Assembly (NCBI RefSeq): GCF_027579695.1
Contig: NC_083583.1
Location: 2,077,625-2,141,624 of the forward strand
Reading direction: 5' to 3'
Source: Neoarius graeffei
Lineage: Eukaryota > Chordata > Actinopteri > Siluriformes > Ariidae
Length of the DNA stretch: 64,000 nt
This document shows, piece after piece, positions 8,691 through 42,062 of this stretch (position 1 is its first letter; each line of letters starts with the position of its first letter). A program made the translations under genes and the position numbers. The notes below the pieces were generated by a model. That model searched no databases, was not told the origin of the DNA, and saw nothing but the letters and a program-made list of their open reading frames with translations.

Positions 8691-8699
8691 TGGACAGGG

Positions 8700-9624: not shown

Positions 9625-9640
9625 GATGGCTGAGTTCTTC

Positions 9641-12804: not shown

Positions 12805-13180
12805 GTAGTAGTAGTAGTAGTAATGTAGGTAAAGTGAGGTGTCAGAAGGTAACATAACATTAAGCAGCTCATGAAATTGACCTCAGGTGATAAAGTTAGC
12901 TTTCTAATTAACATCTAAATCTGAGTCTGTTTTGTTTCAGACACTCTCCTGTTTGCTAATGAGTAGACGTGATAGTTTTTTGTATTTGTGTGTGTGTGTG
13001 TGCGTGTGTAATCCAGAAGGGGGAAAATAGCAGAACCATCTTCATGTCAGGAGACACCATCAGGTCCCAGGTGAACTCTACACTGAATTCTATTTCTATA
13101 ATAAATATAAATATCATTCTGAGAGGAAAGTTTGTTTCAGATCAGGAGGAAATCATACAACGCTTTTCAATATTTCTTGG
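12596..13180. other. AT-rich spacer with simple repeats
   Basis: There is no gene. It holds an (ATT)n/(AGT)n microsatellite at 12778-12823 and a (TG)n run at 12988-13007. The last five bases, cttgg (13176-13180), are the left target duplication of the Gypsy element at 13181; the partner is found inverted at 36314-36318. Confidence 0.7.
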
Positions 13181-13652
13181 TGTTAGGGTTTTGCTGGGAT
13201 TCGAACCTGGTTCGTTGGTGTGATAATCCAGCAAACCCCCACTAGGCCACCAGGGGGATGACTCAAATGCAGAGGCGTGAGTAGAAAAAGAATCAAAAGG
13301 TTTATTTAAACTATATACACTATATACAGGGCAAAACAAAAGACAAAAAAAAAACCAAAGAGTATAATCCAAAAGAAAAGCAAAGTGCAAAAATTCAAAA
13401 GCTAAGAAGATCAAAAAACATAGTACAAAGGAAACTGGAGATAAACATAACAGCACAAAGACTCCGTGACAAGAGGACTGAACTCAGGGGTATAAATAGA
13501 CAAACTAATTAAGGACACAGGTGAAGATAATTAGGCAATTAACACAAACACAAGACACAGGAACAGTGGCGGCCTCTAGAGGCCAAAATAAACACAACAT
13601 GAAAAGGAAATAACAGCGGCCTCTAGAGGCCAAAACAGTCCTAGTCCTAACA
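13181..13652 (-). repeat. Gypsy family A LTR (3' LTR of left copy)
   Basis: A 472-bp LTR. Diagnostic bases (AAAAATTCAAAAG, ACATAGT, CAAGACAC and a run of ten A) agree with the LTR at 36319-36797, not with the LTR at the other end of this same element. A 6-bp deletion removes part of the GAGGCGTGAGGCGG motif near 13278. Confidence 0.93.
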
Positions 13653-13664
13653 GGACCCCCCCCT

Positions 13665-16600
13665 CTAGGAGCGTCTCCTGACGTTCCCAGGGCGATCCGG
13701 ATGGGCCGAATGGAAGTCCCGACATAGTTCTTTATCAAGGACATCCCGAGCAGGAACCCAGCAGCGCTCCTCAGGACCATAGCCCTCCCAGTCCACCAGA
13801 TATTGCAACCCGCCGCGGACCCGGCGGGAGTCAAGCAGGCGATTCACAGTGAACACAGTCTGCCCCTGGAAGATGCGGGGGGGTGGGGGGTTCCTAGGGG
13901 CAGGGGCATACGTAGACGTCAGTACGGGCCGTAACAGGGAAACATGGAAAGTGGGGTTGATCCTCAGAGTCCGGGGCAACTGGAGCCGGTAGGAGACAGG
14001 GTTCACCCTGCGCACCACCTTGAAGGGGCCAATGTAGCGAGGAGCAAGCTTGCGGTTCTCCACCCGCAGTGGAAGGTCCTTAGTGGACAGCCAAACACGC
14101 TGCCCAGGGCGGAAAGCGTGTGCAGGTCTTCTATGGCGGTTGGCCTGAGTCTGGTTGGTTCTGGAGGTCTGTATGAGGGTCTTCCTGACCTTGCTCCAGG
14201 TCTTGCGACACCGTCTCACATATTGGTTGACCGAGGGCACCCCCGCATCCTCCTCCTGGTCCGGGAACAGAGGTGGCTGGAACCCGAATTGGCACTGGAA
14301 TGGCGACAGCTTGGTGGCCGATGACTGCAGGGTGTTGTGGGCGTACTCCGCCCATGGCAGCCAGGTGCTCCACGATGTCGGGTTATCCATAGCCAGGCCT
14401 CGCAGGGTGGTTTCCAGGTCCTGGTTGAGCCTCTCCGTCTGACCATTGGACTGTGGGTGAAACCCAGAGGAGAGGCTGGCAGTGGCTCCGATGACCTTGC
14501 AGAACCCGTGCCACACTCGGGAGGAGAACTGGGGCCCTCGGTCTGAGACGATGTCCTGTGGAAGACCAAAGACTCGGAAGACATGATTAAACAAAAGTTT
14601 CGCAGTTTCAAGAGTAGAGGGGAGTTTGCACAGTGGTATGAAGCGGCAGGCCTTGGAGAATCTGTCAACTAAGACCAAAATGACCGTGTTACCTTGTGAC
14701 TCAGGGAGACCCGTGATAAAGTCGACTGCCACGTGGGACCAGGGACGCCGGGGAATGGTCAGAGGATGCAGGAGACCCTGGGGACGCTGTCGTGGGTTCT
14801 TGGTTCTGGTGCAAACCTCACAGGACAGGACAAATGACCTTACTTCCTTCTCCATGTTAGGCCACCAGAAGCGTCTTTTCAGGAAGTCCAGGGTCCTCCG
14901 AGCTCCCGGGTGGGCGGTGAGAGGGGAAGAGTGACCCCACTGGAGAACCTTGGCCCGGGCTTGATGTGGGACGTACAAGAGGCCTGGTGGCCCCGTCCCA
15001 GGACCGGGGTCCTGGCGTTGGGCTCGTCGGACAGCCTCCTCAATACCCCAGCGGACAGGGGCCACAATCCGGGACACAGGGATAATAGGCCCGACTTCAT
15101 TCTCCCTGTTAGTGGCAGAGAACAGTCTGGACAGTGCGTCAGGTTTGGTGTTCTTGGAGCCGGGGCGGTATGAGAGGGTGAAGTCAAACCGACTGAAAAA
15201 CAGGGCCCACCTAGCCTGTCGAGGGTTCAGTCTCTTGGCTTGCTGGAGGTACTCCAGGTTCTTGTGGTCAGTCCAAACCAGGAATGGATGTTGTGCTCCC
15301 TCCAGCCAGTGCCTCCACTCCTCAAGGGCCAGTTTGACCGCTAGCAGTTCTCGATCCCCCACATCGTACCGGGACTCAGCAGGACTCAGGCGGTGGGAGA
15401 AGTAAGCGCAGGGGTGCAGCTTTCCTTCCGAACGTTGAGAGAGCACCGCGCCGACACCACTGTCCGAGGCGTCCACCTCCACGATGAATGGTTGGGAGGT
15501 GTCCGGGAGAACCAGAATGGGTGCCGTGCAGAAGCGGTCCTTGAGGTCTTTGAACGCCTTTTCTGCCTGAGGAGACCAGCCATAAGATCCACCTGTCCCT
15601 TTGGTGAGGTCTGACATGGGTGCTGCCACAGAACTGAAGTTCCTGATGAACTTGCGGTAGAAGTTAGCGAATCCTAAGAACCGCTGAACCTCCTTAACGG
15701 ACTTGGGAGTAGGCCAGTCCCGGACGGCCAGGGTCTTGGCAGGGTCCATTTGGAGTTGGCCTGTCCGTACAATAAATCCCAGAAAGGAGACCTCGGGAAC
15801 ATGAAATTCGCATTTCTGGGCCTTGGCGAACAGATTGTTCTGTAGCAGCCTCTGGAGAACCTGGCGGACATGGTGGCGGTGCTCCTGCACGGTCTTGGAA
15901 AAGATAAGGATGTCGTCGAGGTAGACAAAAACGTATAGGTTAATCATGTCCCTTAAGACGTCGTTGATTAGGGCCTGAAAAACAGCTGGTGCGTTGGTGA
16001 GTCCGAAGGGCATCACCTGGTATTCGTAGTGCCCAGATGGGGTGTTAAAGGCAGTCTTCCACTCGTCTCCCTGTCGGATACGGATGAGGTGGTATGCGTT
16101 CCGTAGGTCCAACTTGGTGAAGACGGTGGCGCCTTGGAGCAGGTCGAAAGCTGTGGACATCAGCGGAAGGGGATATCGGTTGCGCACAGTGATCTTATTC
16201 AGGCCCCTGTAATCAATACATGGTCGGAGCCCCCCATCCTTCTTGCCGACAAAGAAGAAGCCGGCTCCAGCAGGTGAAGTGGAGGGTCGAATAAACCCAG
16301 AGACCAGGGCATCTTTGAGGTATTCCTCCATGGCCTTGCGTTCTGGCTGAGAGAGTGAAAACAGTCTGCCACGAGGAGGGGTAGTCCCAGGGAGCAAGTC
16401 GATGGCACAGTCGTAGGCCCGGTGCGGAGGAAGAACGGCGGCCCTGCTCTTGCTGAATACCTTCTTGAGATCCCAGTACTCTGTGGGAACTTGAGATAAC
16501 TCGGTGAGATCAGGGGGCTCGGCAGGAGACACAGGAGAGCAGACAAGAGGCATGGCATGCAGGGCCCCATTCCACAACCTGGCTTGTTACCCAGTCTATG

Positions 16601-17052
16601 CGAGGGTTGTGGCGAGTAAGCCAAGGAAGGCCTAGAATAACTGGGAACTCAGGTGAAGGAATCAGGTGCAGGGATATTTCTTCCTTGTGACCTTGAGACT
16701 GGAGGAAGACTGGAGAAGTAACTTGGGTGACTCTTCCATCACCTAACGCTTGGCCATCGAGGGCAGACACAGACAGAGGGACTTCAAGAGGTGCAGTAGG
16801 TATATTGATGCTTTGGGCGAAGTGAATATCCATAAAGTTCCCAGCCGCCCCTGAGTCTATCAAAGCTTGACAAGAGTGGACAGACTCACCCCAGGAGATG
16901 GAGACCGGGATGTAGATTCCTTGGCCAGGGAGTCCGGGAGAGAGGGTAGGCCCCGTCACAACCCTCCCTCGGCTGGACGGGGCGGTCCTTTTCCCAAGAG
17001 TTCGGGACATGATGCTCGGAAGTGACCCGGCTTGCCACAGTAGATGCAGCAC
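13665..17052 (-). pseudogene. Gypsy family A pol, left copy, one frame break
   Basis: Pol polyprotein in the -1 frame relative to gag. In order: retropepsin DSGAAGNF (near 16855), RT ([19 protein letters not shown], then [12 protein letters not shown] near 15910), RNase H ([17 protein letters not shown]), an HHCC-type zinc region and the integrase core ([19 protein letters not shown]), [13 protein letters not shown] and a chromodomain [18 protein letters not shown], stop near 13665. Relative to the other copy it lacks 8 bp near 16525, just after the protease, which splits the frame into 17052-16510 and 16577-13665. The rest is open over 970 codons, so the element is young. Confidence 0.93.
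16950..16995 (-). promoter_or_regulatory. Gag-pol -1 frameshift signal, left copy
   Basis: The minus-strand heptamer G GGA AAA (16995-16989) in the gag frame is followed after 5 nt by an 8-bp stem: GCCCCGTC (16983-16976) pairs with GACGGGGC (16957-16950). The gag stop codon lies in the 3' arm. The same signal is at 37791-37836 in the other copy. Confidence 0.75.
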
Positions 17053-17975
17053 TTGTCCCTCCTTCTGCGCTCCCTCTCAGATGCGGAGAGGCGAGTACGA
17101 CCCACTTGCATGGGTTCTGGACAGTCACTGAAGGAGGTAGACGGTTTCCAGGTAGAGGTAGGGAGGCTGGGGGGGCTCAAGGCTTGGTGGCGTTCTCTCA
17201 TCCTGTTGTCCAGACGAATAGCATGTGAGATGAGGGTTTCGAGGTCACTTGGGCATCCAATAGAGGCCAGACAGTCCTTGATGGGGTCAGACAGACCATG
17301 GTGGAAGGCTGACACCAGGGCAGTCTCGTTCCATCCACTTACTGCTGCGAGTGTTCGGAACGAGATGGCGTAATCTGCGACGCTTCCTCCTTGCCGGATG
17401 GACATGAGCTTTCGGGCTGCGTCGGTACTGATGTCTGCCTGATCGAAGACCCGAAGCATCTCTTCAGAAAACAGCTGGAAATCAAAGCACTCAGGTCCCT
17501 GTCTTTGCCAGATAGCAGTAGCCCAGGCTCGCGCCTTACCAGCTAATAAGGTGATCACAAAGGCAATCTTGCGGCGATCCGTAGTGTAGGTGGTAGGCTG
17601 AAGCTCAAAGGTGAGTTGACACTGGGTAAGGAACTCTCGGCACTCACTGTGCTTGCCGTCATACCTCTGTGGTGCAGGAAGGCTGGGTTCGCGAGGTGAA
17701 GAAGGCAGCATTGCAGGAGGCACTGGAGCAGGAGTGGGAGCTGGATCAGGAGCAGGAACTGGATCAGGAGCAGGAGATGCAGGCAGAGATGTCAGCTGTG
17801 CCAGGGTTTTCCCAATTTGCTGAAGCAGTTCCTCATGGCGAGCAAGGGCCTCACGTTGGCTGGTGAGCGTACGTCCATGAGCGTCCATGGTCGCTCCGAA
17901 GCGTGTCAAAGCTGCCATAATTCCCTGAAGGTTGGCCGGGTAGAAAGTTGAAGCAGCCTCTGCTGAGTCGGTCAT
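16956..17975 (-). CDS. Gypsy family A gag, left copy (339 aa, intact)
   Basis: The capsid-like Gag polyprotein forms the particle that packages the retrotransposon RNA. It starts [10 protein letters not shown] at 17975, 13 bases inside the LTR. Residues 75-95 are a Pro/Ala/Asp-rich repeat. The retrotransposon-gag core follows ([41 protein letters not shown]). A basic stretch [10 protein letters not shown] leads into one CCHC knuckle, [15 protein letters not shown] (about residues 310-324). It ends at TGA inside the frameshift stem. The frame is intact and differs from the other copy by few residues (Cys for Gly in IKDCLAS, Lys for Arg in STWKPST). Pol is read by -1 frameshifting in the 97-nt overlap. 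Confidence 0.93.
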   Translation of the reverse strand: MTDSAEAASTFYPANLQGIMAALTRFGATMDAHGRTLTSQREALARHEELLQQIGKTLAQLTSLPASPAPDPVPAPDPAPTPAPVPPAMLPSSPREPSLPAPQRYDGKHSECREFLTQCQLTFELQPTTYTTDRRKIAFVITLLAGKARAWATAIWQRQGPECFDFQLFSEEMLRVFDQADISTDAARKLMSIRQGGSVADYAISFRTLAAVSGWNETALVSAFHHGLSDPIKDCLASIGCPSDLETLISHAIRLDNRMRERHQALSPPSLPTSTWKPSTSFSDCPEPMQVGRTRLSASERERRRRDKCCIYCGKPGHFRASCPELLGKGPPRPAEGGL

Positions 17976-17988
17976 GACGGAGTCTTTC

Positions 17989-18466
17989 TGTTAGGGTTTT
18001 GCTGGGATTCGAACCTGGTTCGTTGGTGTGATAATCCAGCAAACCCCCACTAGGCCACCAGGGGGATGACTCAAATGCAGAGGCGTGAGGCGGAAGTAGA
18101 AAAAGAATCAAAAGGTTTATTTAAACTATATACACTATATACAGGGCAAAACAAAAGACAAAGAAAAACCAAAGAGTATAATCCAAAAGAAAAGCAAAGT
18201 GCAAAAATACAAAAGCTAAGAAGATCAAAAAACACAGTACAAAGGAAACTGGAGATAAACATAACAGCACAAAGACTCCGTGACAAGAGGACTGAACTCA
18301 GGGGTATAAATAGACAAACTAATTAAGGACACAGGTGAAGATAATTAGGCAATTAACACAAACACAAAACACAGGAACAGTGGCGGCCTCTAGAGGCCAA
18401 AATAAACACGACATGAAAAGGAAATAACAGCGGCCTCTAGAGGCCAAAACAGTCCTAGTCCTAACA
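17989..18466 (-). repeat. Gypsy family A LTR (5' LTR of left copy)
   Basis: A 478-bp LTR. Its diagnostic bases (AAAAATACAAAAG, ACACAGT, CAAAACAC, GACAAAGAAAAACC) agree with the LTR at 41135-41612 rather than with 13181-13652. The 13-bp leader on the gag side (17976-17988) holds the self-priming sequence. The outer flank ttttg (18467-18471) is the reverse complement of caaaa at 41613-41617. Confidence 0.93.
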
Positions 18467-18963
18467 TTTTGCTTATGATTGATTCAAGGTTTTACTCACA
18501 CACATACATATTGATGGAATTAAGATGTGATTTGCTGACTTAGCACAAAATATCAACACATTCACACACGCACACACAACACACACACACAAACACATCC
18601 TACACACACACACACACACACACACATTCATGCACACACACACATACATGCGCACCCACACACACACACACACCCCTCTCACACACACACACACACACAC
18701 ACCCCTCTCACACACACACACACACACACATCTGCGCACACACACATATTCGACAGACACAAGACACAACACAGCCTTTAGAAAGATAAACAGCTTTTTG
18801 GGATGTTATAAAAGGTTGTTTGGAATATTTCATCTTTGGTGAAAAAGCTGTGAATAAACGGCCAATCTCTGGTTTTCTGGTCTGTTTTTTTCGCCCCAGA
18901 ATTCTGCAGGTGGCACAAGGGCATTGGTCTCGAGAAGCCGTTCCAGCTGGGGGAACCTTTACA
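18467..18963 (+). repeat. ERV LTR, displaced and inverted part
   Basis: This is the reverse complement of 51025-51530 of the ERV LTR at 51025-51966. It includes a polymorphic (CA)n stretch (18560-18735) and ends GGGGGAACCTTTACA. Together with 41613-42062 it makes one LTR of about 943 bp after removing the 5-bp duplication, matching the 942-bp partner. The outer flank gccac (18964-18968) is the reverse complement of gtggc at 51967-51971, the ERV target duplication. ORFs in the CA tract are meaningless. Confidence 0.92.
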
Positions 18964-18976
18964 GCCACATCACGTC
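18964..18976 (+). pseudogene. 13-bp sliver of a Penelope-like element
   Basis: gccacatcacgtc sits between the ERV LTR and the Gypsy family B LTR. In frame it encodes the P-H-H-V expected between the 5' Penelope part (ending ...VGNTP at 51967, minus) and the 3' part (KNSQDFATKIADLK from 21213, plus). Its last bases acgtc are the target duplication of the Gypsy B insertion (acatc at 21208-21212). Confidence 0.8.
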
Positions 18977-19552
18977 TGTTAGGGTTTTGCTGGGATTCAA
19001 ACCTGGTTCGCTGGTGTGATAATCCAGCAAACCCCCACTAGGCCACTAGGGGGATGACTCAAGTGCAGAGGCGTGAGGCGGAAGTAGAAAAGTATCAAAA
19101 AGTTTATTTACAATATTTACAGTCCAAAAAGTATAATCCAAAATGCTCAGAAGATAAAGGGAAAAATAAAAAATCCAAAAGTTCAAAGTCCATACAAAAG
19201 CCAAAAAAGAAAAAGAAAAGGCAAAAATACCAACGCTCAGAAGATCCAAAAAACAGTAAATACTAAGTCCAAAAAGTCAAAAAGAAAAACAAAGTGCAAA
19301 ACCACAAAGACAAAGAACACTGAACAGAGGTAACTGGAGCTAAACATAACAGCACAAAGACTCCGTGACAAGAGGACTGAACTCAGGGGTATAAATACAC
19401 AAACTAATTAAGGACAGGGCGGGGCAGGAAACAGGCAATAAGACAAAAACAAAACACAGAACACAGTGGTGACCTCTAGAGGCCAAAACAAACATGACCA
19501 GAAAGGGAAATAACAGCAGACTCTAGAGGTCAAAACAGTCCCAGTCCTAACA
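18977..19552 (-). repeat. Gypsy family B LTR (3' side)
   Basis: A 576-bp LTR with TGTTAGG...CCTAACA ends. It shares the terminal segment with family A (B-box-like GATTC(A/G)AACC, TAGGCCACTAGGGGG), but has a different central region with repeated AAAAAGTC/CCAAAAAG words. Confidence 0.88.
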
Positions 19553-20437
19553 GGACCCCCCCCCCAGGAGCGTCTCCTGACGTTCCCAGGACGATCAGGA
19601 TGGGCCGAATGGAAGTCCCGACAAAGTTCTTTGTCTAGTATGTCCCGAGCTGGGACCCAGCAGCGCTCCTCAGGGCCATAGCCCTCCCAGTCCACAAGAT
19701 ATTGGAGGCCCCCGTGAACCCGGCGGGAGTCCAGCAGGTGGCGCACGGTGAACACATTCTGACCCTGGAAGATGTGGGGGGGCGGGGGGTTCCTAGGGGC
19801 AGGGGCATACATGGACGTCAGTACGGGCCGCAACAGGGAAACATGGAATGTGGGGTTGATCCTTAGCGTACATGGTAACTGGAGCCGGTAGGAGACAGGG
19901 TTAACTCTGCGTACAACCTTGAAAGGGCCAATGTAGCGAGGAGCAAGCTTGCGGTTCTCCACCCGCAGCGGAAGGTCCTTGGTGGACAGCCAAACCTGCT
20001 GCCCAGGGCGGAAAGTGTGGGCAGGTCTCCTATGGCGGTTGGCCTGAGTCTGGTTGGTACTGGAGGTCTGGATGAGTGTCCTCCTGACCTTGCTCCAGGT
20101 CTTGCGACACCATCTCACGTAATGGTTGACTGAGGGCAGACACAGACAGTGGGACTTCAAGAGTCGGGACATTGATGCTTTGGGCGAAGTGGATATCCAT
20201 AAAGTTTCCAGCCGCCCCTGAGTCTAACAAGGCTTGACAAGAGTGGACGGACTCACCCCAGAAGATGGAGACCGGGATGTAGATTCCTTGGCCAGGGAGT
20301 CCGGGAGAGAGGGTAGGCCCCGTCACAACCCTCCCTCGGCTGGATGGGGCGATCCTTTTCCTGAGAGTTCGAGACATGATGCTCGGAAGTGACCAGGCTT
20401 GCCACAGTAGATGCAGCACTTGTCCCTCCTTCTGCAC
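19553..20437 (-). pseudogene. Gypsy family B pol remnant with large internal deletion
   Basis: Minus strand. The distal part (20172-19560) has the integrase C-terminal module [13 protein letters not shown] and a chromodomain [18 protein letters not shown] ending PGNVRRRS. Near 20130-20150 it is fused to a protease fragment ([19 protein letters not shown], upstream on the minus strand). RT, RNase H and most of integrase are therefore deleted. The flank CGRxxxLPxVN around the junction shows the deletion removed about 3 kb. Confidence 0.88.
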
Positions 20438-20459
20438 TCCCTCTCAGATGCTCCCTCTT
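20323..20459 (-). pseudogene. Gypsy family B gag C-terminal remnant
   Basis: Only the zinc-knuckle end remains ([19 protein letters not shown], then LSGKGSPHPAEGGL stop). The frameshift heptamer of family A (GGGAAAA) is AGGAAAA here, so the slip site is broken. Upstream gag sequence is replaced at 20459/20460 by ERV LTR sequence. Confidence 0.82.
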
Positions 20460-20618
20460 CATCTTTGGTGAAAAAGCTGTGAATAAACAGCCAATCTCTG
20501 GTTTTCTGGTCTGTTTTTTTCACAGTGTTTTTTCACCCCAGAATTCTGCAGGTGGCACGAAGGCATTGGTCTCGAGAAGCCGTTCTAGCTGGGGGAACCT
20601 TTACAGCCACATCATGTC
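20460..20618 (+). repeat. Duplicated ERV LTR end plus flank
   Basis: 20460-20605 repeats the end of the ERV LTR (compare 18831-18963), with CpG-type differences and an extra CACAGTGTTTTTT. 20606-20618 is gccacatcatgtc, the same flank as 18964-18976 with one C/T difference. This shows a local duplication, not an independent insertion. Confidence 0.8.
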
Positions 20619-21207
20619 TGTTAGGGTTTTGCTGGGATTCGAACCTGGTTCACTGGTGTGATAATCCAGCAAACCCCCACTAGGCCACCAGGGGGGTGAC
20701 TCAAGTGCAGAGGCGTGAGGCGGAAGTAGAAAAGTATCAAAAAGTTTATTTACAATATTTACAGTCCAAAAAGTATAATCCAAAACACTCAGAAGATAAA
20801 GGGAAAAATAAAAAAATCCAAAAGTTCAAAGTCCATACAAAAGCCAAAAAAAAAAAAAAAAAAGAAAAGGCAAAAATACCAATGCTCAGAAGATCCAAAA
20901 AACAGTAAATACTAAGTCCAAAAAGTCAAAAAGAAAAACAAAGTGCAAAACCACAAAGACAAAGGCAAGGAACACGGAACAAAGGTAACTGGAGCTAAAT
21001 ATAACAGCACAAAGACTCTGTGACAAGAGGACTGAACTCAGGGGTATAAATACACAAAGTAATTAAGGACAGGGCAGGGCAGGAAACAGGCAATAAGACA
21101 AAAACAAAACACAGAACACAGTGGTGACCTCTAGAGGCCAAAACAAACATGACCAGAAAGGGAAATAACAGCGGCCTCTAGAGGCCAAAACAGTCCCAGT
21201 CCTAACA
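20619..21207 (-). repeat. Gypsy family B LTR (second)
   Basis: A 589-bp LTR, slightly longer than 18977-19552 owing to an A-run at 20848-20863. Its outer flank is acatc, leading straight into the Penelope-like reading frame. Confidence 0.88.
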
Positions 21208-22439
21208 ACATCAAAAACTCCCAAGATTTTGCTACTAAAATTGCAGACCTCAAACTAGACTCAGATGAAACCATGGTTTCCTACGACGTCATTTCTCTTT
21301 TCACCTGCATTCCCACCACAGAAGCAGTTGAATCTGTTAGAAAACGACTCCTTCGAGACAGCACCTTACTGGATAGAATGAACCTCACCACGGACCAGAT
21401 TTGCACCCTGCTTGACCTCTGCCTGACTACCACTTATTTCCAGTTTAATGAAAGTTTCTACAGACAGAAGCATGGCTGCGCCATGGGCTCACCGGTTTCC
21501 CCTATTGTGGCCAATCTTTACATGGAGGAAGTGGAACATAAAGCTTTGACCACTTTTTCAGAAGTTGCTCCCAGCCACTGGTTCAGATATGTGGATGACA
21601 CCTGGGTTAAAATCAAAACCCATGAGGTGGAAGCCTTCTCTAAGCACATCAATGCAGTGGATATTAACATCAACTTCACTTGGGAGGATGTCAATGGGAA
21701 TAATCTAGCCTTCTTGGATTGTGATGTACTCATTAGACAAGACAGAAGCCTGAGCATCGAGGTCTACCAGAAACCCCCACACACAGACCAGTACCTACTC
21801 TTTGACTCTCACCACCCACTTGAACACAAATTGGGGGTCATTAGGACCTTGCAACACAGGACTCAGAATATCCCTACAACGATAGAGGGAAAAGAGAAGG
21901 AGCAGAATCACATCAAGAAAGCACTTCAGAACTGCGGGTATCCCAACTGGTCTTTCCTCAAGAGCAGAAAAAGGAACAGAACGGACAAGGAGGATAACAG
22001 GAACAAATGCAAGAACATTGTCATTCCCTACATTTCTGGTCTATCTGAGAAACTCAGGAGGATCTTCTACAAACACAACATTCCGGTACATTTCAGACCC
22101 AGTAACACCCTGAAGCAGAAACTGGTCCACCCTAAGGACAGAATACCCAGACACAAACAGGACAGCGTAGTGTACGCAATTCAGTGCAGTGAGGAATGCA
22201 CGGACTCGTATATTGGGGAACTAAACAACCGCTTCACAGGCGCATGGCTCAACACAGGAGAGCCAGTTCCTCAGGCCAGGACTCTGCTGTCTACCTTCAT
22301 CTTAACTACAAAGGACACTCATTTCAGGATTGCAATGTACGCATTTTAGCCAGAGAGGATCATTGGCTTGAGCGAGAAGTTAAAGAAGCCATTTTTGTCA
22401 ACCTGGAACAGCCATCACTGAACAGAGGTGGGGGTCTAA
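21208..22439 (+). pseudogene. Penelope-like element: RT and GIY-YIG endonuclease, 3' half
   Basis: The translation from 21213 (KNSQDFATKIADLKLDSDET, then MVSYDVISLFTCIPT at 21273) is a Penelope-type reverse transcriptase with GCAMGSPVSPIVANLYMEE and catalytic FRYVDDTWV (about 21583). The C-terminal GIY-YIG endonuclease starts VVYAIQCSEECTDSYIGE (about 22168) and continues in another frame (LHRRMAQHRRA, HWLEREVKEAIFV) after a frameshift near 22225. The N-terminal half is missing here; a matching 5' half in the opposite orientation is at 51967-52295. Penelope-like elements of fish (Neptune/Poseidon types) have this RT plus GIY-YIG architecture. Confidence 0.92.
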
Positions 22440-23435
22440 GGCCCTGTCCACACGGCAATGGATTCAGGTGAATCCGATACAATTGTTTATCGTTTCGGCC
22501 TGGCGTCCACACGGCACCGCCGTTTTGGGTGCCCCAAAACAAAATCTTTTGAGAACAGGTTCCAGAGTGGAAAGATCTGGCAACGTTGCCATTGCGAAGT
22601 CGTCTGGATGAGTAGAACGGATTTGTTTACGATGACGTCACAACCACATGACTGTGAGTGCTTCACACCGGGTAGAAGTGTAACGAACTTGATGCGAGTT
22701 GTCAACAAATCCTATAACTTGGTTCATGAAACGCGCTTACAAAATATTTTCACTGTGAATATTTATTGTGTAATGGTGCAAAGTGAGAGAGAGAGAGAGA
22801 ATAGCCCTTAGGGCAGAGTCAATCCCGCCAGCAAAAATAGGGAAAAAAAAGGAGCGATCTCACCTCTTCAGATGTTGGTTTAAGTCCTACAATACATTCC
22901 TCAAAAAGGGCGTAGAAGAACAAATTAATCCATCAACGTGTAGCATTCAATTTATTCCGGACCATTAAAGACGCCGCCTTCCGCGTAGAATCATACGTCA
23001 TCCTCGCCGCCATATTGGATGGGTCAAAGCGGAGAATAAAGATGCCTCATTCATGTGCTGCGTTTAACTGTACCAACAGGTTTACCGTCCAAACGAGATC
23101 ACATGGGATTACCTTTCACAGGTGAGACTGGAAAAATACTTTTCATTGTATTTGGTCATTATAATGTAATTTTACGAACAGATTTTTCTGACTTTGTGGC
23201 TAATATGAAGTCTCGCGCATAATAGTTTATGCGCATGCGTCCTTACTTCTTCTATTGTTCTGGTGTCTCCGAAGGGACCGTCTTACAGCGCCCCTAGAGG
23301 TGTGGCATGTGTATTGCATCGTTTTCAGCAAGCATTGCGTTGCCATATGGACCTGATATTTTACTGATCGTTGCCCATTTGGACGCGATATTTTTTTAAA
23401 TAACATCTCATTGCCGTTGTCGTGTGGATGTAGCC
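22440..23435 (+). mobile_element. TIR transposon (non-autonomous) carrying a THAP exon
   Basis: The ends are inverted repeats (GGCCCTGTCCACACGGCAA on the left, GGCTACATCCACACGACAA read from the right), with TAA on both sides (22437-22439 / 23436-23438), which fits a 3-bp PIF/Harbinger-type duplication. The Penelope sequence is continuous when it is removed. No transposase core is present. It contains a CpG-rich, promoter-like middle and one THAP-type exon (23042-23121). Confidence 0.75.
23042..23121 (+). CDS. THAP-domain first exon (partial)
   Basis: ATG at 23042 opens MPHSCAAFNCTNRFTVQTRS, followed by HGITFH, the N-terminal half of a THAP (C2CH) zinc finger: the C-x3-C pair and the GITFH motif are in place. 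A consensus donor follows at once (CACAG|GTGAGA at 23121/23122). Upstream, GCCGCCATATTGGA (23008-23021) looks like a YY1-type core promoter site. The rest of the domain (second Cys/His and AVPTIF box) would be in a following exon that I cannot find. It may be the remnant of the element's own transposase gene or a captured host first exon. Confidence 0.6.
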
Positions 23436-31761: not shown

Positions 31762-31864
31762 TTTCTGACAATCCAGAGCCAAGGCCAGGGAGCAGACGAA
31801 CAGGCTAAACCGACTGTCTGCTAGCTGCACAGAGTCGTCACTCAGGGCCCACTACATCGAGACT

Positions 31865-34843
31865 GTGTCTGTTCCCCGAGCTCAACAAAAAGGTAGAAAT
31901 TTTCAGAGAGTTTGTTCCAGTAACCTAATCAATATAAAATTAGATCAGACTGACTGTACAGCTGCTGCCAGCACCTTTGATCTAAAGGTGGGGCTATTAA
32001 ATATTAGATCTCTTACATCTAAAGCGCTAATGGTTAATGAACTCATTACTGATCAGGAGTTTAATGTACTGTGTTTAACAGAAACATGGATTAAGCCAAA
32101 TGAATATATAGCATTAAATGAAGCGAGTCCTCCTGGATACAGTTATATACACCAGCCTCGTCTAACTGGCAGAGGAGGAGGCGTCGCGGTTATTTATAAC
32201 GATTATCTAGGTGTAACACACAAACCTGGTTATAAATTTAATACATTTGAAGTTCTTCATACTCATATAATGTATGTAGCCTCGAAAAATAAGTCTACCC
32301 AGTTAATTCCATTGCTTATTATTTACAGGCCCCCGGGGCCATATTCTGAGTTTCTTTCTGAATTTGCAGATTTTATCTCAGATTTGGTTATTTCCTTAGA
32401 CAAAGCTTTAGTTGTCGGAGATTTTAATATTCACTTCGATAACCCAGAAGACCCTTTAAAAACAGCGTTTGTGTCCATCTTAGATTCAGTCGGGATTAAG
32501 CAGAATGTCATAGGACCGACCCATAATGGTGGTCACACCCTTGATCTAATACTAACATTCAGATTAAACGTAGACAATATAGTCATACTTCCACAGTCTG
32601 AAGTTATCTCAGATCATTGTCTCATCTCATTCAAAATATGTCTGAGTAATAATATATGCACCTCACCACGCTACTGTATTAAACGTACATTCGTGTCAAC
32701 TACTGCACAGAGCTTTATAAATGATCTCCCAGAGTTATCAACTTTGACTGGGTCACTGTCAGCCCCTGTAGAACTCGATCAGGCAACTGAATGCTTAGAG
32801 TCAACATTCCGCCATACTTTAGATAATGTAGCTCCTCTAAAAAGGAAAATGGTCAGAGACAAAAAATTAGCACCCTGGTATAATGATGACACTCGCACAT
32901 TAAAACAGAACACTCGAAAATTGGAACGTAAATGGCGTCAAACAAAATTGGTAGTGTTCAAATTGGCGTGGAAAGAGAGCTTCCTGAGGTATAGAAAAGC
33001 TCTTAGTGCTGCGAGATCAACATATCTCTCCTCCCTAATAGAAGATAACAAAAATAATCCTAGATTCCTATTTAATACTGTAGCAAAATTAACCAGGAAT
33101 AAGTCCACTATCAACACATGCACACCTGCAGTATGTAGTAGCAACGACTTCATGAATTTTTTTAATGACAAAATTGAGAATATCCGACAAAAAATTCAAA
33201 CTACTAATTTAAGGTTAGACAATGAAAGTGACCTTGTAGTTAACAATATAACTGTATCAGATCATCAGTTAGAATGTTTTACTCCCCTAAAAGAAACTGA
33301 ATTACTTTCATTAATCTCTACATCAAAAGCCTCAACTTGCGTACTAGATCCCTTACCGACACATCTATTCAAACAGATAATGCCTGGAGTAATTGAACCG
33401 CTTCTAAAAATAATAAATTCTTCTCTTATGATTGGCTATGTACCCAAATCCTTTAAACTAGCAGTTATCAAACCCCTGATTAAAAAACCTGACCTTGATC
33501 CCTGTCAGCTGTCCAATTATCGGCCAATATCAAACCTCCCCTTTATCTCCAAGATCCTTGAAAAAGCTGTGGCACAGCAGTTATGCTCATATTTACATAG
33601 GAATAACATCCATGAAATGTATCAGTCAGGATTTAGACCTCATCATAGCACAGAGACAGCACTGGTTAAAGTAGTAAACGACCTACTGTTGGCGTCTGAT
33701 CAGGGCTGTGTCTCGCTACTTGTGTTGCTTGACCTTAGTGCAGCATTTGATACCATTGATCATTCCATTCTTCTGGATAGACTAGAAAATGTTGTGGGAG
33801 TTAAGGGAATGGCCCTCTCCTGGCTCAGGTCTTATCTAACTGATCGTTATCAGTATGTTGATATAAATGGTGATATTTCTAGACGTACCGAGGTAAAGTT
33901 TGGTGTTCCACAAGGTTCTGTCTTGGGTCCACTGCTTTTTTCTCTATATATGTTACCTCTGGGCGATATTATTCGTAAACATTGTATTAGTTTCCACTGT
34001 TATGCTGATGACACACAGTTGTATGTCTCTGCAAAACCTGATGAGACACACCAGCTTAATAAAATTGAGGAATGTGTTAAGGACATTAGACACTGGATGC
34101 TTATAAATTTCCTTCTGCTTAACTCTGACAAGACTGAAGTACTTGTACTCGGACCACATACAGCTAGAAGTAAGTTTTCTGATTACACAGTAACTCTGGA
34201 TGGCCTTTCCGTTTCTTCACGTGCAGCAGTAAAAGACCTCGGAGTGATTATTGACCCCAGTCTTTCATTCGAAACTCACATTGATAACATCACCCGGATA
34301 GCTTTCTTTCATCTCAGAAATATTGCAAAGATAAGAAATTTAATGTCATTGCATGATGCAGAAAAACTAGTCCATGCTTTCGTTACCTCCAGGTTGGATT
34401 ATTGTAATGCCTTACTGTCTGGATGTTCCAATAAGTGCATAAACAAGCTCCAGTTAGTTCAAAATGCCGCAGCAAGAGTCCTTACTAGAACTAGAAAATA
34501 TGACCACATCACGCCTGTCTTATCCACACTGCATTGGCTCCCAATCAAATTTCGTATTGATTATAAAATACTACTATTGACCTTTAAAGCACTAAATGGT
34601 CTCGCACCACAGTACCTGAGTGAACTTCTGCTCCTCTATGACCCGCCACGCCTACTTAGATCAAAAGGTGCAGGCTATCTGCTGGTACCTCGTATAGTGA
34701 AGGCTACATCAGGGGGCAGAGCCTTTTCTTACAAAGCCCCACTGTTATGGAACAGCCTTCCAAGTAATGTTCGGGAATCAGACACAGTCTCAGCATTTAA
34801 GTCTAGGCTGAAAACATATCTGTTTAGTCAAGCCTTTTGTTAA
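31865..34843 (+). CDS. LINE ORF2: APE endonuclease and reverse transcriptase
   Basis: The open frame has about 992 codons and performs target-primed reverse transcription. Endonuclease (residues about 40-260): [37 protein letters not shown] and SDHCLISF. Reverse transcriptase (about 490-800): [60 protein letters not shown], catalytic CYADDTQLY (near residue 712) and [12 protein letters not shown]. The C-terminus ends FSQAFC. No ATG precedes the endonuclease: the first in-frame ATG lies in KALMVNELI, inside it, and 31865 is a GTG. Initiation by re-start after ORF1 or a non-AUG codon is inferred. No internal stop is present. Confidence 0.95.
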
Positions 34844-35991
34844 TGGTGTTTATGAGGTAAAGGAGTAGGTCTGGAGGGTCCTCAGACATAGAGTGTTTTG
34901 GTAAACTGGGATGTATGGATGCTGTCAGTCCCCACTCGCTTGCTCACTCGAGTTTGTTGACGGTGCAGTGGCTGGCTGCTTTATGTCCCGGGGCTCCCTC
35001 ATGCCTGTGTTACCTTCTGGCTCTCTCCTTTTAGTTATGCTGTCATAGTTAGTTGCCGGAGTCCCTGCTTGTACTCGGTGCAATATGTATACTGTTCCTA
35101 CTTATTCAGGTGACATTGGGCATACCTAACCACCTGTGTTTTCTTTCTCTCCCCCCCCCCACTCCAAATCTGTCCCTCTGAGTTACATGGAGTCAACAGG
35201 AAATCTTTTGGTGGAGACGGTGGGGACCTCGACTGGCTATCGTAGCCTGCAGGGAATCGGCCATCAGACATTCTGTCGCATGTCCCAGACCCGGTGAAAT
35301 GTAACTGAATTGTCTTGGCCAGGCCTAAGGGTCCCATCTGCATCTCATCATTGCTGAGGAGTGTGCTCCCATCACCCAATCTAGCATCCAGCCAGAGCAG
35401 GTCATGATATATTTTTTTACCATATTAACATGCCATTGTGTGTCATGCCTGATGTAAAGACTCTTGTCTCTGCGAGCCTACCACACAGATTTAATACTTG
35501 TCATTTTTAGGGCATACCTAACAACATGTTTTCTTTCTCTCTCTCTCTCCCCCCCCCCCCAATCTGTCCCTCTGAGTTACATGTTGATCCTGGGATTGAG
35601 ATGCTGGCCTCTTCTGCCCCTCGGACCTGCTTGATCCATCCTGGTGCCCTGTGTCTGGTCGGAGTTTTATCGCCCCACTCCTGTGAAGGACGGCCCCATG
35701 AGGACAGTTGAGGGTTATACCTGTTAAAACTGTTAATATTATAGTCAGGCTGTCTGTTGTTGCCCAAATGAGGATGGGTTCCCTTTTGAGTCTGGTTCCT
35801 CTCGAGGTTTCTTCCTCATGTCATCTGAGGGAGTTTTTCCTTGCCACCGTCGCCACAGGCTTGCTCATTGGGGATAGATTAGGGATAAAATTAGCTCATG
35901 TTTTAAGTCGTTCAAATTCTGTAAAGCTGCTTTGCGACAATGTTTATTGTTAAAAGCGCTGTACAAATAAACTTGATTGATTGATTGATTG
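34844..35991 (+). other. LINE 3' UTR and tail
   Basis: A non-coding 3' end with C-runs at 35150-35160 and 35551-35560, ending GCGCTGTACAAATAAACTTGA plus TTGATTGA repeats. It matches the 3' parts of LINE copy 1 (10948-11163 and 12026-12595). Confidence 0.88.
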
Positions 35992-36318
35992 AAAGAGAAT
36001 ATTTCTCTCTATTAGTCTCCATCTGTTGGTTCTGGGTTCAAACCTCTTGGCCGATGGGGGTCTTTCTGTGTGGAGTTTGCATGTTCTCCCCGTGTCTGCA
36101 TGGGTTTCCTCTGGGTGCTCCGGTTTCCTCCACAGTTCAAAGACATGCAGATTTGGTAAAATATCCAGCCACTGGAGTTGTACAGCCAGTTGTACTTAGT
36201 GCTGGTAACAAGCCCAGATAGACTGGGGAGGGTTGCATTAGGAAGGACATCCGGTGTAAAACCTACACCAGATCAAACATGCAGATCATAATGATCCTCT
36301 GTGGTGACCTCTACCAAG
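35992..36318 (+). repeat. SINE-like dispersed repeat fragment
   Basis: It contains a B-box-like GGGTTCAAACC (36032-36042), TTTGCATGTTCTCCCCGTGT and CGGTTTCCTCCACAG, shared in diverged form with the SINE at 189-564, then a different 3' part (GGAAGGACATCCGGTGTAAA). Its last five bases ccaag (36314-36318) are the displaced target duplication of the Gypsy insertion at 13181. Confidence 0.65.
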
Positions 36319-36797
36319 TGTTAGGACTAGGACTGTTTTGGCCTCTAGAGGCCGCTGTTATTTCCTTTTCATGTCGTGTTTATTTTGGCCTCTAGAGGCC
36401 GCCACTGTTCCTGTGTCTTGTGTTTGTGTTAATTGCCTAATTATCTTCACCTGTGTCCTTAATTAGTTTGTCTATTTATACCCCTGAGTTCAGTCCTCTT
36501 GTCACGGAGTCTTTGTGCTGTTATGTTTATCTCCAGTTTCCTTTGTACTATGTTTTTTGATCTTCTTAGCTTTTGAATTTTTGCACTTTGCTTTTCTTTT
36601 GGATTATACTCTTTGGTTTTTTTTTTGTCTTTTGTTTTGCCCTGTATATAGTGTATATAGTTTAAATAAACCTTTTGATTCTTTTTCTACTTCCGCCTCA
36701 CGCCTCTGCATTTGAGTCATCCCCCTGGTGGCCTAGTGGGGGTTTGCTGGATTATCACACCAACGAACCAGGTTCGAATCCCAGCAAAACCCTAACA
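36319..36797 (+). repeat. Gypsy family A 5' LTR, right copy
   Basis: U3 holds two copies of the palindrome GGCCTCTAGAGGCC (36340-36353 and 36387-36400). TATTTATA (36473-36480) is the probable TATA box, so transcription should start near 36504. AATAAA at 36665-36670 is the probable polyadenylation signal. The last 70 bp contain A box TGGCCTAGTGG (36729-36739) and B box GGTTCGAATCC (36771-36781). The ends are TGTTAGG...CCTAACA. Confidence 0.9.
36504..36514 (+). promoter_or_regulatory. Predicted RNA 5' end, self-primer sequence
   Basis: acggagtcttt starts 31 bp after the TATA box. It is the exact reverse complement of aaagactccgt at 36799-36809, immediately after the LTR. This is the Tf1/sushi arrangement, in which the first 11 or so bases of the RNA prime minus-strand synthesis in place of a tRNA. 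Confidence 0.7.
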
Positions 36798-36798
36798 G

Positions 36799-36809
36799 AA
36801 AGACTCCGT
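36799..36809 (+). promoter_or_regulatory. Predicted primer-binding site (self-priming)
   Basis: aaagactccgt lies 1 base after the 5' LTR and 1 base before the gag ATG. No TGG-starting tRNA-complementary site exists in the 13-base leader. It pairs perfectly with 36504-36514. The left copy has the same arrangement on the minus strand (17976-17988). Confidence 0.7.
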
Positions 36810-36810
36810 C

Positions 36811-37830
36811 ATGACCGACTCAGCAGAGGCTGCTTCAACTTTCTACCCGGCCAACCTTCAGGGAATTATGGCAGCTTTGACACGCTTCGGAGCGACCATG
36901 GACGCTCATGGACGTACGCTCACCAGCCAACGTGAGGCCCTTGCTCGCCACGAGGAACTGCTTCAGCAAATTGGGAAAACCCTGGCACAGCTGACATCTC
37001 TGCCTGCATCTCCTGCTCCTGATCCAGTTCCTGCTCCTGATCCAGCTCCCACTCCTGCTCCAGTGCCTCCTGCAATGCTGCCTTCTTCACCTCGCGAACC
37101 CAGCCTTCCTGCACCACAGAGGTATGACGGCAAGCACAGTGAGTGCCGAGAGTTCCTTACCCAGTGTCAACTCACCTTTGAGCTTCAGCCTACCACCTAC
37201 ACTACGGATCGCCGCAAGATTGCCTTTGTGATCACCTTATTAGCTGGTAAGGCGCGAGCCTGGGCTACTGCTATCTGGCAAAGACAGGGACCTGAGTGCT
37301 TTGATTTCCAGCTGTTTTCTGAAGAGATGCTTCGGGTCTTCGATCAGGCAGACATCAGTACCGACGCAGCCCGAAAGCTCATGTCCATCCGGCAAGGAGG
37401 AAGCGTCGCAGATTACGCCATCTCGTTCCGAACACTCGCAGCAGTAAGTGGATGGAACGAGACTGCCCTGGTGTCAGCCTTCCACCATGGTCTGTCTGAC
37501 CCCATCAAGGACGGTCTGGCCTCTATTGGATGCCCAAGTGACCTCGAAACCCTCATCTCACATGCTATTCGTCTGGACAACAGGATGAGAGAACGCCACC
37601 AAGCCTTGAGCCCCCCCAGCCTCCCTACCTCTACCTGGAGACCGTCTACCTCCTTCAGTGACTGTCCAGAACCCATGCAAGTGGGTCGTACTCGCCTCTC
37701 CGCATCTGAGAGGGAGCGCAGAAGGAGGGACAAGTGCTGCATCTACTGTGGCAAGCCTGGTCACTTCCGAGCATCATGTCCCGAACTCTTGGGAAAAGGA
37801 CCGCCCCGTCCAGCCGAGGGAGGGTTGTGA
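36811..37830 (+). CDS. Gypsy family A gag, right copy (339 aa, intact)
   Basis: Capsid/nucleocapsid precursor starting [10 protein letters not shown], 13 bases after the LTR. Order: coiled-coil-prone N-terminus ([20 protein letters not shown]), a Pro-Ala-Asp repeat ([18 protein letters not shown]), the retrotransposon-gag core ([48 protein letters not shown]), basic [10 protein letters not shown] and one CCHC knuckle [15 protein letters not shown]. The stop is TGA 37828-37830, within the frameshift stem. The pol frame overlaps by 97 nt in the -1 frame. Confidence 0.94.
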
Positions 37831-40800
37831 CGGGGCCTACCCTCTCTCCCGGACTCCCTGGCCAAGGAATCTACATCCCGGTCTCCATCTCCTGGGGTGA
37901 GTCTGTCCACTCTTGTCAAGCTTTGATAGACTCAGGGGCGGCTGGGAACTTTATGGATATTCACTTCGCCCAAAGCATCAATATTCCGACTGCACCTCTT
38001 GAAGTCCCACTATCTGTGTCTGCCCTCGATGGCCAAGCGTTAGGTGATGGAAGAGTCACCCAAGTAACTTCTCCAGTTTTCCTCCAGTCTCAAGGTCACA
38101 AGGAAGAAATATCCCTGCACCTGATTCCTTCACCTGAGTTCCCAGTTATTCTAGGCCTTCCTTGGCTTACTCGCCACAACCCTCGCATAGACTGGGTAAC
38201 AAGCCAGGTTGTGGAATGGGGCCCTGCATGCCATGCCTCTTGTCTGCTCTCTAGCTCTCCTGTGTCTCCTGCCGAGCCCCCTGATCTCACCGAGTTATCT
38301 CAAGTTCCCACAGAGTACTGGGATCTCAAGGAGGTATTCAGCAAGAGCAGGGCCGCCGTTCTTCCTCCGCACCGGGCCTACGACTGTGCCATCGACTTGC
38401 TCCCTGGGACTACCCCTCCTCGTGGCAGACTGTTTTCACTCTCTCAGCCAGAACGCAAGGCCATGGAGGAATACCTCAAAGATGCCCTGGTCTCTGGGTT
38501 TATTCGACCCTCCACTTCACCTGCTGGAGCCGGCTTCTTCTTTGTCGGCAAGAAGGATGGGGGGCTCCGACCATGTATTGATTACAGGGGCCTGAATAAG
38601 ATCACTGTGCGCAACCGATATCCCCTTCCGCTGATGTCCACAGCTTTCGACCTGCTCCAAGGCGCCACCGTCTTCACCAAGTTGGACCTACGGAACGCAT
38701 ACCACCTCATCCGTATCCGACAGGGAGACGAGTGGAAGACTGCCTTTAACACCCCGTCTGGGCACTACGAATACCAGGTGATGCCCTTCGGACTCACCAA
38801 CGCACCAGCTGTTTTTCAGGCCCTAATCAACGACGTCTTAAGGGACATGATTAACCTATACGTTTTTGTCTACCTCGACGACATCCTTATCTTTTCCAAG
38901 ACCGTGCAGGAGCACCGCCACCATGTCCGCCAGGTTCTCCAGAGGCTGCTACAGAACAATCTGTTCGCCAAGGCCCAGAAATGCGAATTTCATGTTCCCG
39001 AGGTCTCCTTTCTGGGATTTATTGTACGGACAGGCCAACTCCAAATGGACCCTGCCAAGACCCTGGCCGTCCGGGACTGGCCTACTCCCAAGTCCGTTAA
39101 GGAGGTTCAGCGGTTCTTAGGATTCGCTAACTTCTACCGCAAGTTCATCAGGAACTTCAGTTCTGTGGCAGCACCCATGTCAGACCTCACCAAAGGGACA
39201 GGTGGATCTTATGGCTGGTCTCCTCAGGCAGAAAAGGCGTTCAAAGACCTCAAGGACCGCTTCTGCACGGCACCCATTCTGGTTCTCCCGGACACCTCCC
39301 AACCATTCATCGTGGAGGTGGACGCCTCGGACAGTGGTGTCGGCGCGGTGCTCTCTCAACGTTCGGAAGGAAAGCTGCACCCCTGCGCTTACTTCTCCCA
39401 CCGCCTGAGTCCTGCTGAGTCCCGGTACGATGTGGGGGATCGAGAACTGCTAGCGGTCAAACTGGCCCTTGAGGAGTGGAGGCACTGGCTGGAGGGAGCA
39501 CAACATCCATTCCTGGTTTGGACTGACCACAAGAACCTGGAGTACCTCCAGCAAGCCAAGAGACTGAACCCTCGACAGGCTAGGTGGGCCCTGTTTTTCA
39601 GTCGGTTTGACTTCACCCTCTCATACCGCCCCGGCTCCAAGAACACCAAACCTGACGCACTGTCCAGACTGTTCTCTGCCACTAACAGGGAGAATGAAGT
39701 CGGGCCTATTATCCCTGTGTCCCGGATTGTGGCCCCTGTCCGCTGGGGTATTGAGGAGGCTGTCCGACGAGCCCAACGCCAGGACCCCGGTCCTGGGACG
39801 GGGCCACCAGGCCTCTTGTACGTCCCACATCAAGCCCGGGCCAAGGTTCTCCAGTGGGGTCACTCTTCCCCTCTCACCGCCCACCCGGGAGCTCGGAGGA
39901 CCCTGGACTTCCTGAAAAGACGCTTCTGGTGGCCTAACATGGAGAAGGAAGTAAGGTCATTTGTCCTGTCCTGTGAGGTTTGCACCAGAACCAAGAACCC
40001 ACGACAGCGTCCCCAGGGTCTCCTGCATCCTCTGACCATTCCCCGGCGTCCCTGGTCCCACGTGGCAGTCGACTTTATCACGGGTCTCCCTGAGTCACAA
40101 GGTAACACGGTCATTTTGGTCTTAGTGGACAGATTCTCCAAGGCCTGCCGCTTCATACCACTGTGCAAACTCCCCTCTGCTCTTGAAACTGCGAAACTTT
40201 TGTTTAATCATGTCTTCCGAGTCTTTGGTCTTCCACAGGACATCGTCTCAGACCGAGGGCCCCAGTTCTCCTCCCGAGTGTGGCACGGGTTCTGCAAGGT
40301 CATCGGAGCCACTGCCAGCCTCTCCTCTGGGTTTCACCCACAGTCCAATGGTCAGACGGAGAGGCTCAACCAGGACCTGGAAACCACCCTGCGAGGCCTG
40401 GCTATGGATAACCCGACATCGTGGAGCACCTGGCTGCCATGGGCGGAGTACGCCCACAACACCCTGCAGTCATCGGCCACCAAGCTGTCGCCATTCCAGT
40501 GCCAATTCGGGTTCCAGCCACCTCTGTTCCCGGACCAGGAGGAGGACGCGGGGGTGCCCTCGGTCAACCAATATGTGAGACGGTGTCGCAAGACCTGGAG
40601 CAAGGTCAGGAAGACCCTCATACAGACCTCCAGAACCAACCAGACTCAGGCCAACCGCCATAGAAGACCTGCACACGCTTTCCGCCCTGGGCAGCGTGTT
40701 TGGCTGTCCACTAAGGACCTTCCACTGCGGGTGGAGAACCGCAAGCTTGCTCCTCGCTACATTGGCCCCTTCAAGGTGGTGTGCAGGGTGAACCCTGTCT

Positions 40801-41122
40801 CCTACCGGCTCCAGTTGCCCCGGACTCTGAGGATCAACCCCACTTTCCATGTTTCCCTGTTACGGCCCGTACTGACATCTACGTATGCCCCTGCTCCTAG
40901 GAACCCCCCCGCATCTTCCAGGGGCAGACTGTGTTCACTGTGAATCGCCTGCTTGACTCCCGCCGGGTCCGCGGCGGGTTGCAATATCTGGTGGACTGGG
41001 AGGGCTATGGTCCTGAGGAGCGCTGCTGGGTTCCTGCTCGGGATGTCCTTGATAAAGAACTATGTCGGGACTTCCATTCGGCCCATCCGGATCGCCCTGG
41101 GAACGTCAGGAGACGCTCCTAG
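37734..41122 (+). pseudogene. Gypsy family A pol, right copy, one frame break near the end
   Basis: The pol frame is open from 37734 to 40943 (1069 codons). Protease DSGAAGNF is at about residue 66, [14 protein letters not shown] at about 380, RNase [15 protein letters not shown] at about 529, and integrase [10 protein letters not shown] and SDRGPQFSS at about 778-840, followed by [14 protein letters not shown] 7-bp shortening of a C-rich run at 40904-40910, compared with the left copy, shifts the frame just before the chromodomain. The chromodomain ([18 protein letters not shown], ending NVRRRS at 41122) is open in another frame. All catalytic domains lie before the break. No stop interrupts them. 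Confidence 0.93.
37791..37836 (+). promoter_or_regulatory. Gag-pol -1 ribosomal frameshift signal
   Basis: The heptamer G GGA AAA (37791-37797), spaced in the gag frame, is followed by a 5-nt spacer and a perfect 8-bp stem: GCCCCGTC (37803-37810) with GACGGGGC (37829-37836), loop 18 nt. A -1 slip leads exactly into the open pol frame. The related domesticated gene PEG10 uses the heptamer GGGAAAC. Confidence 0.8.
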
Positions 41123-41134
41123 AGGGGGGGGTCC

Positions 41135-41612
41135 TGTTAGGACTAGGACTGTTTTGGCCTCTAGAGGCCGCTGTTATTTCCTTTTCATGTCGTGTTTATT
41201 TTGGCCTCTAGAGGCCGCCACTGTTCCTGTGTTTTGAGTTTGTGTTAATTGCCTAATTATCTTCACCTGTGTCCTTAATTAGTTTGTCTATTTATACCCC
41301 TGAGTTCAGTCCTCTTGTCACGGAGTCTTTGTGCTGTTATGTTTATCTCCAGTTTCCTTTGTACTGTGTTTTTTGATCTTCTTAGCTTTTGTATTTTTGC
41401 ACTTTGCTTTTCTTTTGGATTATACGCTTTGGTTTTTCTTTGTCTTTTGTTTTGCCCTGTATATAGTGTATATAGTTTAAATAAACCTTTTGATTCTTTT
41501 TCTACTTCCACCTCACGCCTCTGCATTTGAGTCATCCCCCTGGTGGCCTAGTGGGGGTTTGCTGGATTATCACACCAACGAACCAGGTTCGAATCCCAGC
41601 AAAACCCTAACA
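41135..41612 (+). repeat. Gypsy family A 3' LTR, right copy
   Basis: A 478-bp LTR. Diagnostic bases (TTTTGTATTTTTG, ACTGTGT, GTGTTTTG, GGTTTTTCTTTGTC) pair it with 17989-18466. The target duplication caaaa follows at 41613-41617. Confidence 0.93.
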
Positions 41613-42062
41613 CAAAATATACCTTGGATCAATCATAAGCAAAATATTTCATATCAACGGATGTTTTTTAGCAACTCAGCATTTATGCACGTCAAAGCGC
41701 GAGATGTTTTTTACGACAATTTTAAACAAAGACACTATGTTTAGTCTAGCAAGTGTCCACTGGATGAAGGTCAAGTTACACAGGAATAGTTTAAAATCAC
41801 TGTTATAGTACATGTAATAGTCTAAAATAATAAAGGATCTTAAAAAGCTCTAAAATATTAAAATCATAAAGTCTTACCAATCATAAATTACATTCTGCAT
41901 TCTAAAACTATAAAACTAACTTAAATCACTTAATGCAGCTTTAAATCTAACATTCAATTATTTCAATTTCAAATTCAACACTGAAGAGACTGGTTAAATC
42001 TAACAATCCTAAATCACGTGTAGCTATAAAACTAACTTAAATCATGGCTTTAAATACTAACA
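41613..42062 (-). repeat. ERV 3' LTR, part left in place
   Basis: Matches 51518-51966 of the partner LTR, with few differences, and begins with the caaaa duplicated by the Gypsy insertion. In ERV sense the LTR starts TGTTAGTATTTAAAGCC at 42062. A purine tract (GAAGGGGGGATAT, 42075-42063) adjoins it. Confidence 0.9.

Follow-up and report, generated by a model that had tools for sequence, protein, structure and literature searches.

The window analysed here is a stretch of 64,000 nucleotides from the catfish Neoarius graeffei (assembly GCF_027579695.1, contig NC_083583.1, positions 2,077,625 to 2,141,624), and the feature under study is a block of DNA within it that is bounded by two inverted copies, A and B, of a Ty3/Gypsy retrotransposon. 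Both copies are full-length, 5.3 kb long and 99% identical, so that homologous copies lie at both ends of the block; their alignment spans 5302 columns with 29 substitutions and 24 gap columns, the gaps being of 1, 7 and 8 bases. Copy B, searched in pieces, yields the domains Retrotrans_gag and Ty3_capsid, RVP_2, RVT_1, RT_RNaseH and rve in Ty3/Gypsy order. The long terminal repeats (LTRs) of the family start with TG and end with CA, fall into two subtypes, and are accompanied by a short target duplication of fixed length. The features on which the argument depends are as follows.

13176-13180, plus strand: target duplication cttgg, left of copy A; its partner is ccaag at 36314-36318.
13181-18466, minus strand: copy A, a chimeric Ty3/Gypsy element with a subtype 2 5' LTR and element position 2438, and a subtype 1 3' LTR.
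13181-13652, minus strand: LTR a1, the 3' LTR of A, subtype 1; original partner b1.
14012-16038, minus strand: likely crossover interval in copy A, element positions 4464 to 2438.
17989-18466, minus strand: LTR a2, the 5' LTR of A, subtype 2; original partner b2.
18467-18471, plus strand: target duplication ttttg, right of copy A; its partner is caaaa at 41613-41617.
18467-36318, no strand: the enclosed block of 17,852 bp, in which the open reading frames (ORFs) scanned are transposon-like or unassigned.
36314-36318, plus strand: target duplication ccaag, left of copy B.
36319-41612, plus strand: copy B, a Ty3/Gypsy element and the reciprocal chimera, with a subtype 1 5' LTR and element position 2438, and a subtype 2 3' LTR.
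36319-36797, plus strand: LTR b1, the 5' LTR of B, subtype 1; original partner a1.
38756-40782, plus strand: likely crossover interval in copy B, element positions 2438-4464.
41135-41612, plus strand: LTR b2, the 3' LTR of B, subtype 2; original partner a2.
41613-41617, plus strand: target duplication caaaa, right of copy B.

The two copies have exchanged their target duplications. Neither A nor B is flanked by matching sequences of its own (0/2), but across the copies cttgg and ccaag, and likewise ttttg and caaaa, are reverse complements, as a preliminary description of this DNA had reported. From the 5-mer composition of the window, the probability of two such cross-matches arising by chance is about 1.4e-6. 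Control copies were obtained by genome searches with LTR b1 for subtype 1 and LTR a2 for subtype 2. The b1 search, in which 40 of 811 candidates were scored, returned 40 places, comprising the window's own b1, 12 pairs of LTRs from the same copy and 15 single LTRs. Identical 5-bp flanks surround all 12 pairs. The single LTRs belong to 13 full-length copies whose mates fell outside the matches listed (12 with exact duplications, one with a single different base) and to two solo LTRs, both with identical flanks when read by eye. The subtype 1 copies overall thus carry exact duplications in 24/25 cases, with one mismatch in the remaining one, and all 13 subtype 2 copies have matching duplications, in one case of 6 bp. 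Altogether, 37 of the 38 other full-length copies examined have exact target duplications and the 38th is off by one base; the duplication measures 5 bp in 37 (including the copy with the mismatched base) and 6 bp in one. Family members with non-matching flanks but no inversion, which the preliminary description had named as evidence that would count against an inversion, did not appear among them beyond this single base.

The LTRs have exchanged partners in the same way. Alignment columns 99, 232, 258, 299 (a one-base gap) and 305 separate a1 and b1 from a2 and b2, so the pairing proposed in the preliminary description stands, with five distinguishing columns in place of the four differences it had listed. 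A single substitution and a 7-bp gap distinguish a1 from b1, and three substitutions a2 from b2, giving divergences of 0.0021 and 0.0063 for the true pairs, while the LTRs that now share a copy are separated by 5 substitutions in A and 7 in B, in addition to gaps. The first seven loci suggested that the A at column 232 was private to a1 and b1, an idea abandoned when 2 of 19 other subtype 1 LTRs were found to carry it.

No such mixture was seen elsewhere. All 35 candidates of the a2 search were scored, and its 28 strong LTRs consist of 13 same-copy pairs and two orphans, a2 and b2, both in the window; another ten rows match other relatives weakly. The genome search skips common words, and for this reason the a2 search, which missed subtype 1 LTRs despite their identity of about 99%, can be taken as exhaustive only where an LTR has kept the words specific to its subtype. 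Among the 26 paired subtype 2 LTRs, 25 have scores that correspond to two mismatches or fewer from a2. The LTR with the lowest score contains an 8-bp gap and, like the next lowest, shows subtype 2 states at all five columns. Each LTR of the 12 subtype 1 pairs is, again by score, one mismatch from b1, and the 13 further subtype 1 mates are subtype 1 at every covered site (2-4 sites each, column 232 not counted). LTRs of mixed subtype therefore occur in 0/38 other full-length copies at the sites covered (25 of subtype 1 and 13 of subtype 2), whereas A and B are both mixed, and reciprocally so.

An internal marker extends this chimerism into the element body. Element position 2438 is A in copy A and G in copy B; in the copies compared it is A in both subtype 2 copies and G in both subtype 1 copies. 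Counting the A form by its exact 30-mer, in the 100 of 109 matches listed (up to C24) and taking absence to mean no exact 30-mer, we found it in 11/12 subtype 2 copies (the exception being C2:92982841), in copy A and in 0/21 subtype 1 copies, counting copies on the contigs listed. Since A resembles subtype 2 and B resembles subtype 1 at this position, the switch between subtypes lies further 3'. At positions 4464, 4559 and 4577, copy B has three states in common with one of two subtype 2 copies, and at most of the other sites where A differs from B, one of the two has a state of its own among the copies looked at. The longest stretch free of differences between them, about 1.37 kb, covers element positions 2438-3809. 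We therefore place the crossover downstream of position 2438 and probably before 4464, an interval of 2 kb. If it did fall within 2438-4464, the turned-over DNA would amount to some 22.7-26.8 kb including the inner parts of both copies; the inversion of about 18 kb given in the preliminary description agrees with the enclosed block of 17,852 bp but is smaller than the DNA that would have turned. The 30-base stretch around position 2438 (16038 in copy A) has 109 exact matches in the genome, which suggests that the Gypsy family extends beyond the young LTR subtypes studied here.

A further line of evidence comes from a dispersed repeat that has been divided between the outer right flank and the block.

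18467-18963, minus strand: one half of the dispersed repeat; the other is now found at 41613-42062.
41613-42062, plus strand: the second half, split from 18467-18963.
51025-51966, plus strand: an uninterrupted paralogue of the split repeat, serving as an empty-site reference inside the window.

When 18467-18963 is reversed and set before 41613-42062, the two form one continuous sequence. The paralogue is 97.3% identical to the right half and 87% to the left, its matches to the two halves overlapping by the target duplication, and across the join region, at 51489-51564, it differs from the joined flanks by two substitutions in 76 columns. A search for the split repeat listed 49 matches, with 40 of 1328 candidates scored, and 20 loci were cut out. 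The halves adjoin on one strand in 19 of these, as a flip would predict and with the paralogue at 51025-51966 among them, the 20th being the window's own split half. They overlap by exactly five bases at three joined loci and by 22-31 bases at the other 16, as expected with one 27-bp unit instead of two. The division of this repeat between 18467 and 41613 independently supports the same change of orientation at one junction.

Exchanged target duplications, swapped LTR partners, reciprocal chimerism in the LTRs and one internal marker, and one junction whose reversal restores a repeat are thus all present at this locus. They are consistent with a history in which two Ty3/Gypsy copies of different subtypes would have inserted about 18 kb apart in opposite orientation, after which a single crossover between them would have flipped the intervening DNA and left two reciprocal chimeric copies with exchanged target duplications. 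We consider it very likely, judging from the assembled sequence, that this is a real inversion produced by ectopic homologous recombination between the inverted copies rather than a flip introduced during assembly, and we infer that the event was biological and intrachromosomal. The enclosed block, 18467-36318, is likely in the derived, flipped orientation. With divergences of only 0.2% and 0.6% between the true LTR partners, the inversion also appears to be young. Recombination within the inverted repeats, which the preliminary description had given as the cause, is accordingly supported, with the split repeat as an independent line at one junction. Its word "proved" is too strong, because, as it acknowledged itself, a block misoriented in the assembly gives identical letters.

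Several points weigh against an inversion or soften the evidence for it. The orientation is read from the letters of one assembly, and the control by matching flanks bears only indirectly on a flip by the assembler, because isolated copies cannot reveal a local one. The subtype 1 control copies were drawn from the 40 scored of 811 candidates, and subtype 2 LTRs without the subtype's own words may have escaped the a2 search. Within the elements, the 3' bound of the crossover consists of the three sites common to B and one of two subtype 2 copies, and is weaker than the marker at 2438; the other subtype 2 copy, four subtype 1 loci and copy A carry alternative states at 4464, 4559 and 4577. The 19 joined loci of the split repeat establish that joined copies exist and are not an unbiased proportion, because the query itself spans the join. 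Lastly, at the 13180/36318 junction the other genome matches of the left flank are only four stretches of 33-39 bases, and the short interspersed nuclear element (SINE)-like repeat at 36100-36318 ends about 14 bp before its usual end, with no convincing tail across the junction in an alignment of 29 other loci. As neither gives an empty-site match, the evidence at this junction consists solely of the target duplication and the LTR pairing.

The most serious alternative is an assembly error, in which the block was misoriented between the near-identical inverted copies by a switch inside their longest shared stretch. Such an error would produce the same letters, and the difference-free stretch of about 1.37 kb at 2438-3809 is where either process tends to switch. 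However, a check of the full window found no Ns and thus no sign of a separate contig having been flipped at the scaffold level. In addition, flanks sharing a target duplication are correctly joined in all 38 other full-length copies (37 exactly), which suggests that reads spanned the 5.3-kb element, and a chromosome-scale assembly of 2.34 Gb in 38 contigs fits such element-spanning reads. The absence of Ns and the correct flanks elsewhere make an assembly error less likely, and we regard it as improbable, though well ahead of the explanations that follow.

Two unrelated insertions could each have recombined with a distant copy, their flanks then matching by chance without any inversion. Recombination between distant copies can indeed give mismatched flanks, but this account needs the two chance 5-mer matches whose probability was given above, needs the only two subtype 2 orphan LTRs found to share one place by chance, and needs precisely these two ends to divide, by coincidence, a repeat that is intact at other loci; we give it a very small probability. 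Much the same is true of LTR gene conversion or template switching during reverse transcription, either of which would create mixed copies without an inversion. LTR gene conversion has been reported in the human genome (PMC4921805), but neither process swaps outer target duplications or splits a flanking repeat, and among the other 38 full-length copies no mixed one was seen at the sites covered. An inversion through double-strand breaks or replication, with both ends in the two elements by coincidence, is likewise extremely improbable: human inversions whose complex breakpoints fall at transposons are known (PMC9675761), but A and B both retain their full length and can be aligned from end to end, and neither shows a large deletion or foreign sequence.

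Inversion by recombination between A and B remains our preferred explanation, and with it comes the further possibility that the inversion is still segregating in the species as a reversible switch, recurrent crossover maintaining both orientations in living individuals. The two 5.3-kb arms are still 99% identical, which is why movement back and forth is conceivable; nevertheless, we hold this extension to be rather doubtful.

If real, this is an inversion for which a single assembly suffices and no outgroup is needed, because the LTR pairs, the target duplications and the split neighbouring repeat all record the old order. The locus also holds a trap for dating, as the present 5' and 3' LTRs of A and B count 5 and 7 substitutions where the true pairs count 1 and 3. 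Applied across whole genomes, the same check would pick up inversions together with orientation errors, which reads would then tell apart.

A Pfam scan covering 20 ORFs, of which 13 lie in the block, turned up domains related to transposons and a GDSL domain in a long interspersed nuclear element (LINE)-like element; no host gene stood out clearly, smaller exons not being searched, and Rfam at gathering scores and ARAGORN gave no matches. One LINE-like element is present in two copies, at 1236-12590 and 32818-35973, which match in six pieces. Beside the second copy lie two ORFs, one of GDSL type (30805-31758) and one for an endonuclease-reverse transcriptase (31769-34840), the latter open over 1024 codons. 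Also within the block, 18829-21207 holds an older related Gypsy element, with partial internal sequence between two units of flank plus LTR (18829-19552 and 20458-21207) that are 93% identical and look like a tandem duplication in or next to an old insertion, and 28341-29780 holds a remnant of a hAT-type transposase with DUF659 and a dimerisation domain. Outside the block, a more distant Gypsy relative at 6119-8779 shares 66% identity with the internal region of copies A and B. A 40-bp tandem array occurs at 53977-54189 (5.3 copies) and 54481-54582 (2.5 copies), each array starting at the end of a truncated copy of a repeat that is also found at 187-564 and 43368-43744 (97-99% identical).

The same reasoning, from swapped LTR partners together with mismatched duplications, has been applied to recombination between human endogenous retroviruses. 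A literature search of partial coverage found no earlier report of the particular inversion described here. The closest parallel is inversion 2z3 of Drosophila buzzatii, for which the available text describes oppositely oriented Galileo copies with exchanged target duplications, both of them chimeric (PMC2775673). The A/B pair bears all three of these marks. Unlike Galileo 2z3 as described there, A and B belong to an LTR retrotransposon and enclose a block of about 18 kb, and their LTR pairing supplies a second built-in record of the original end partners. In humans, all 15 inversions mediated by transposable elements in the accessible text of another study have junctions in oppositely oriented transposons, some with simple homologous breakpoints (PMC9675761). 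In contrast to the A/B case, these are Alu and LINE-1 events called between individuals, and the word "ltr" is absent from the main text of that study as available. Since both Galileo 2z3 and the human transposon inversions have been described (PMC2775673, PMC9675761), the mechanism is already known, and the likely A/B inversion would be a well-marked further case of it, involving an LTR retrotransposon.

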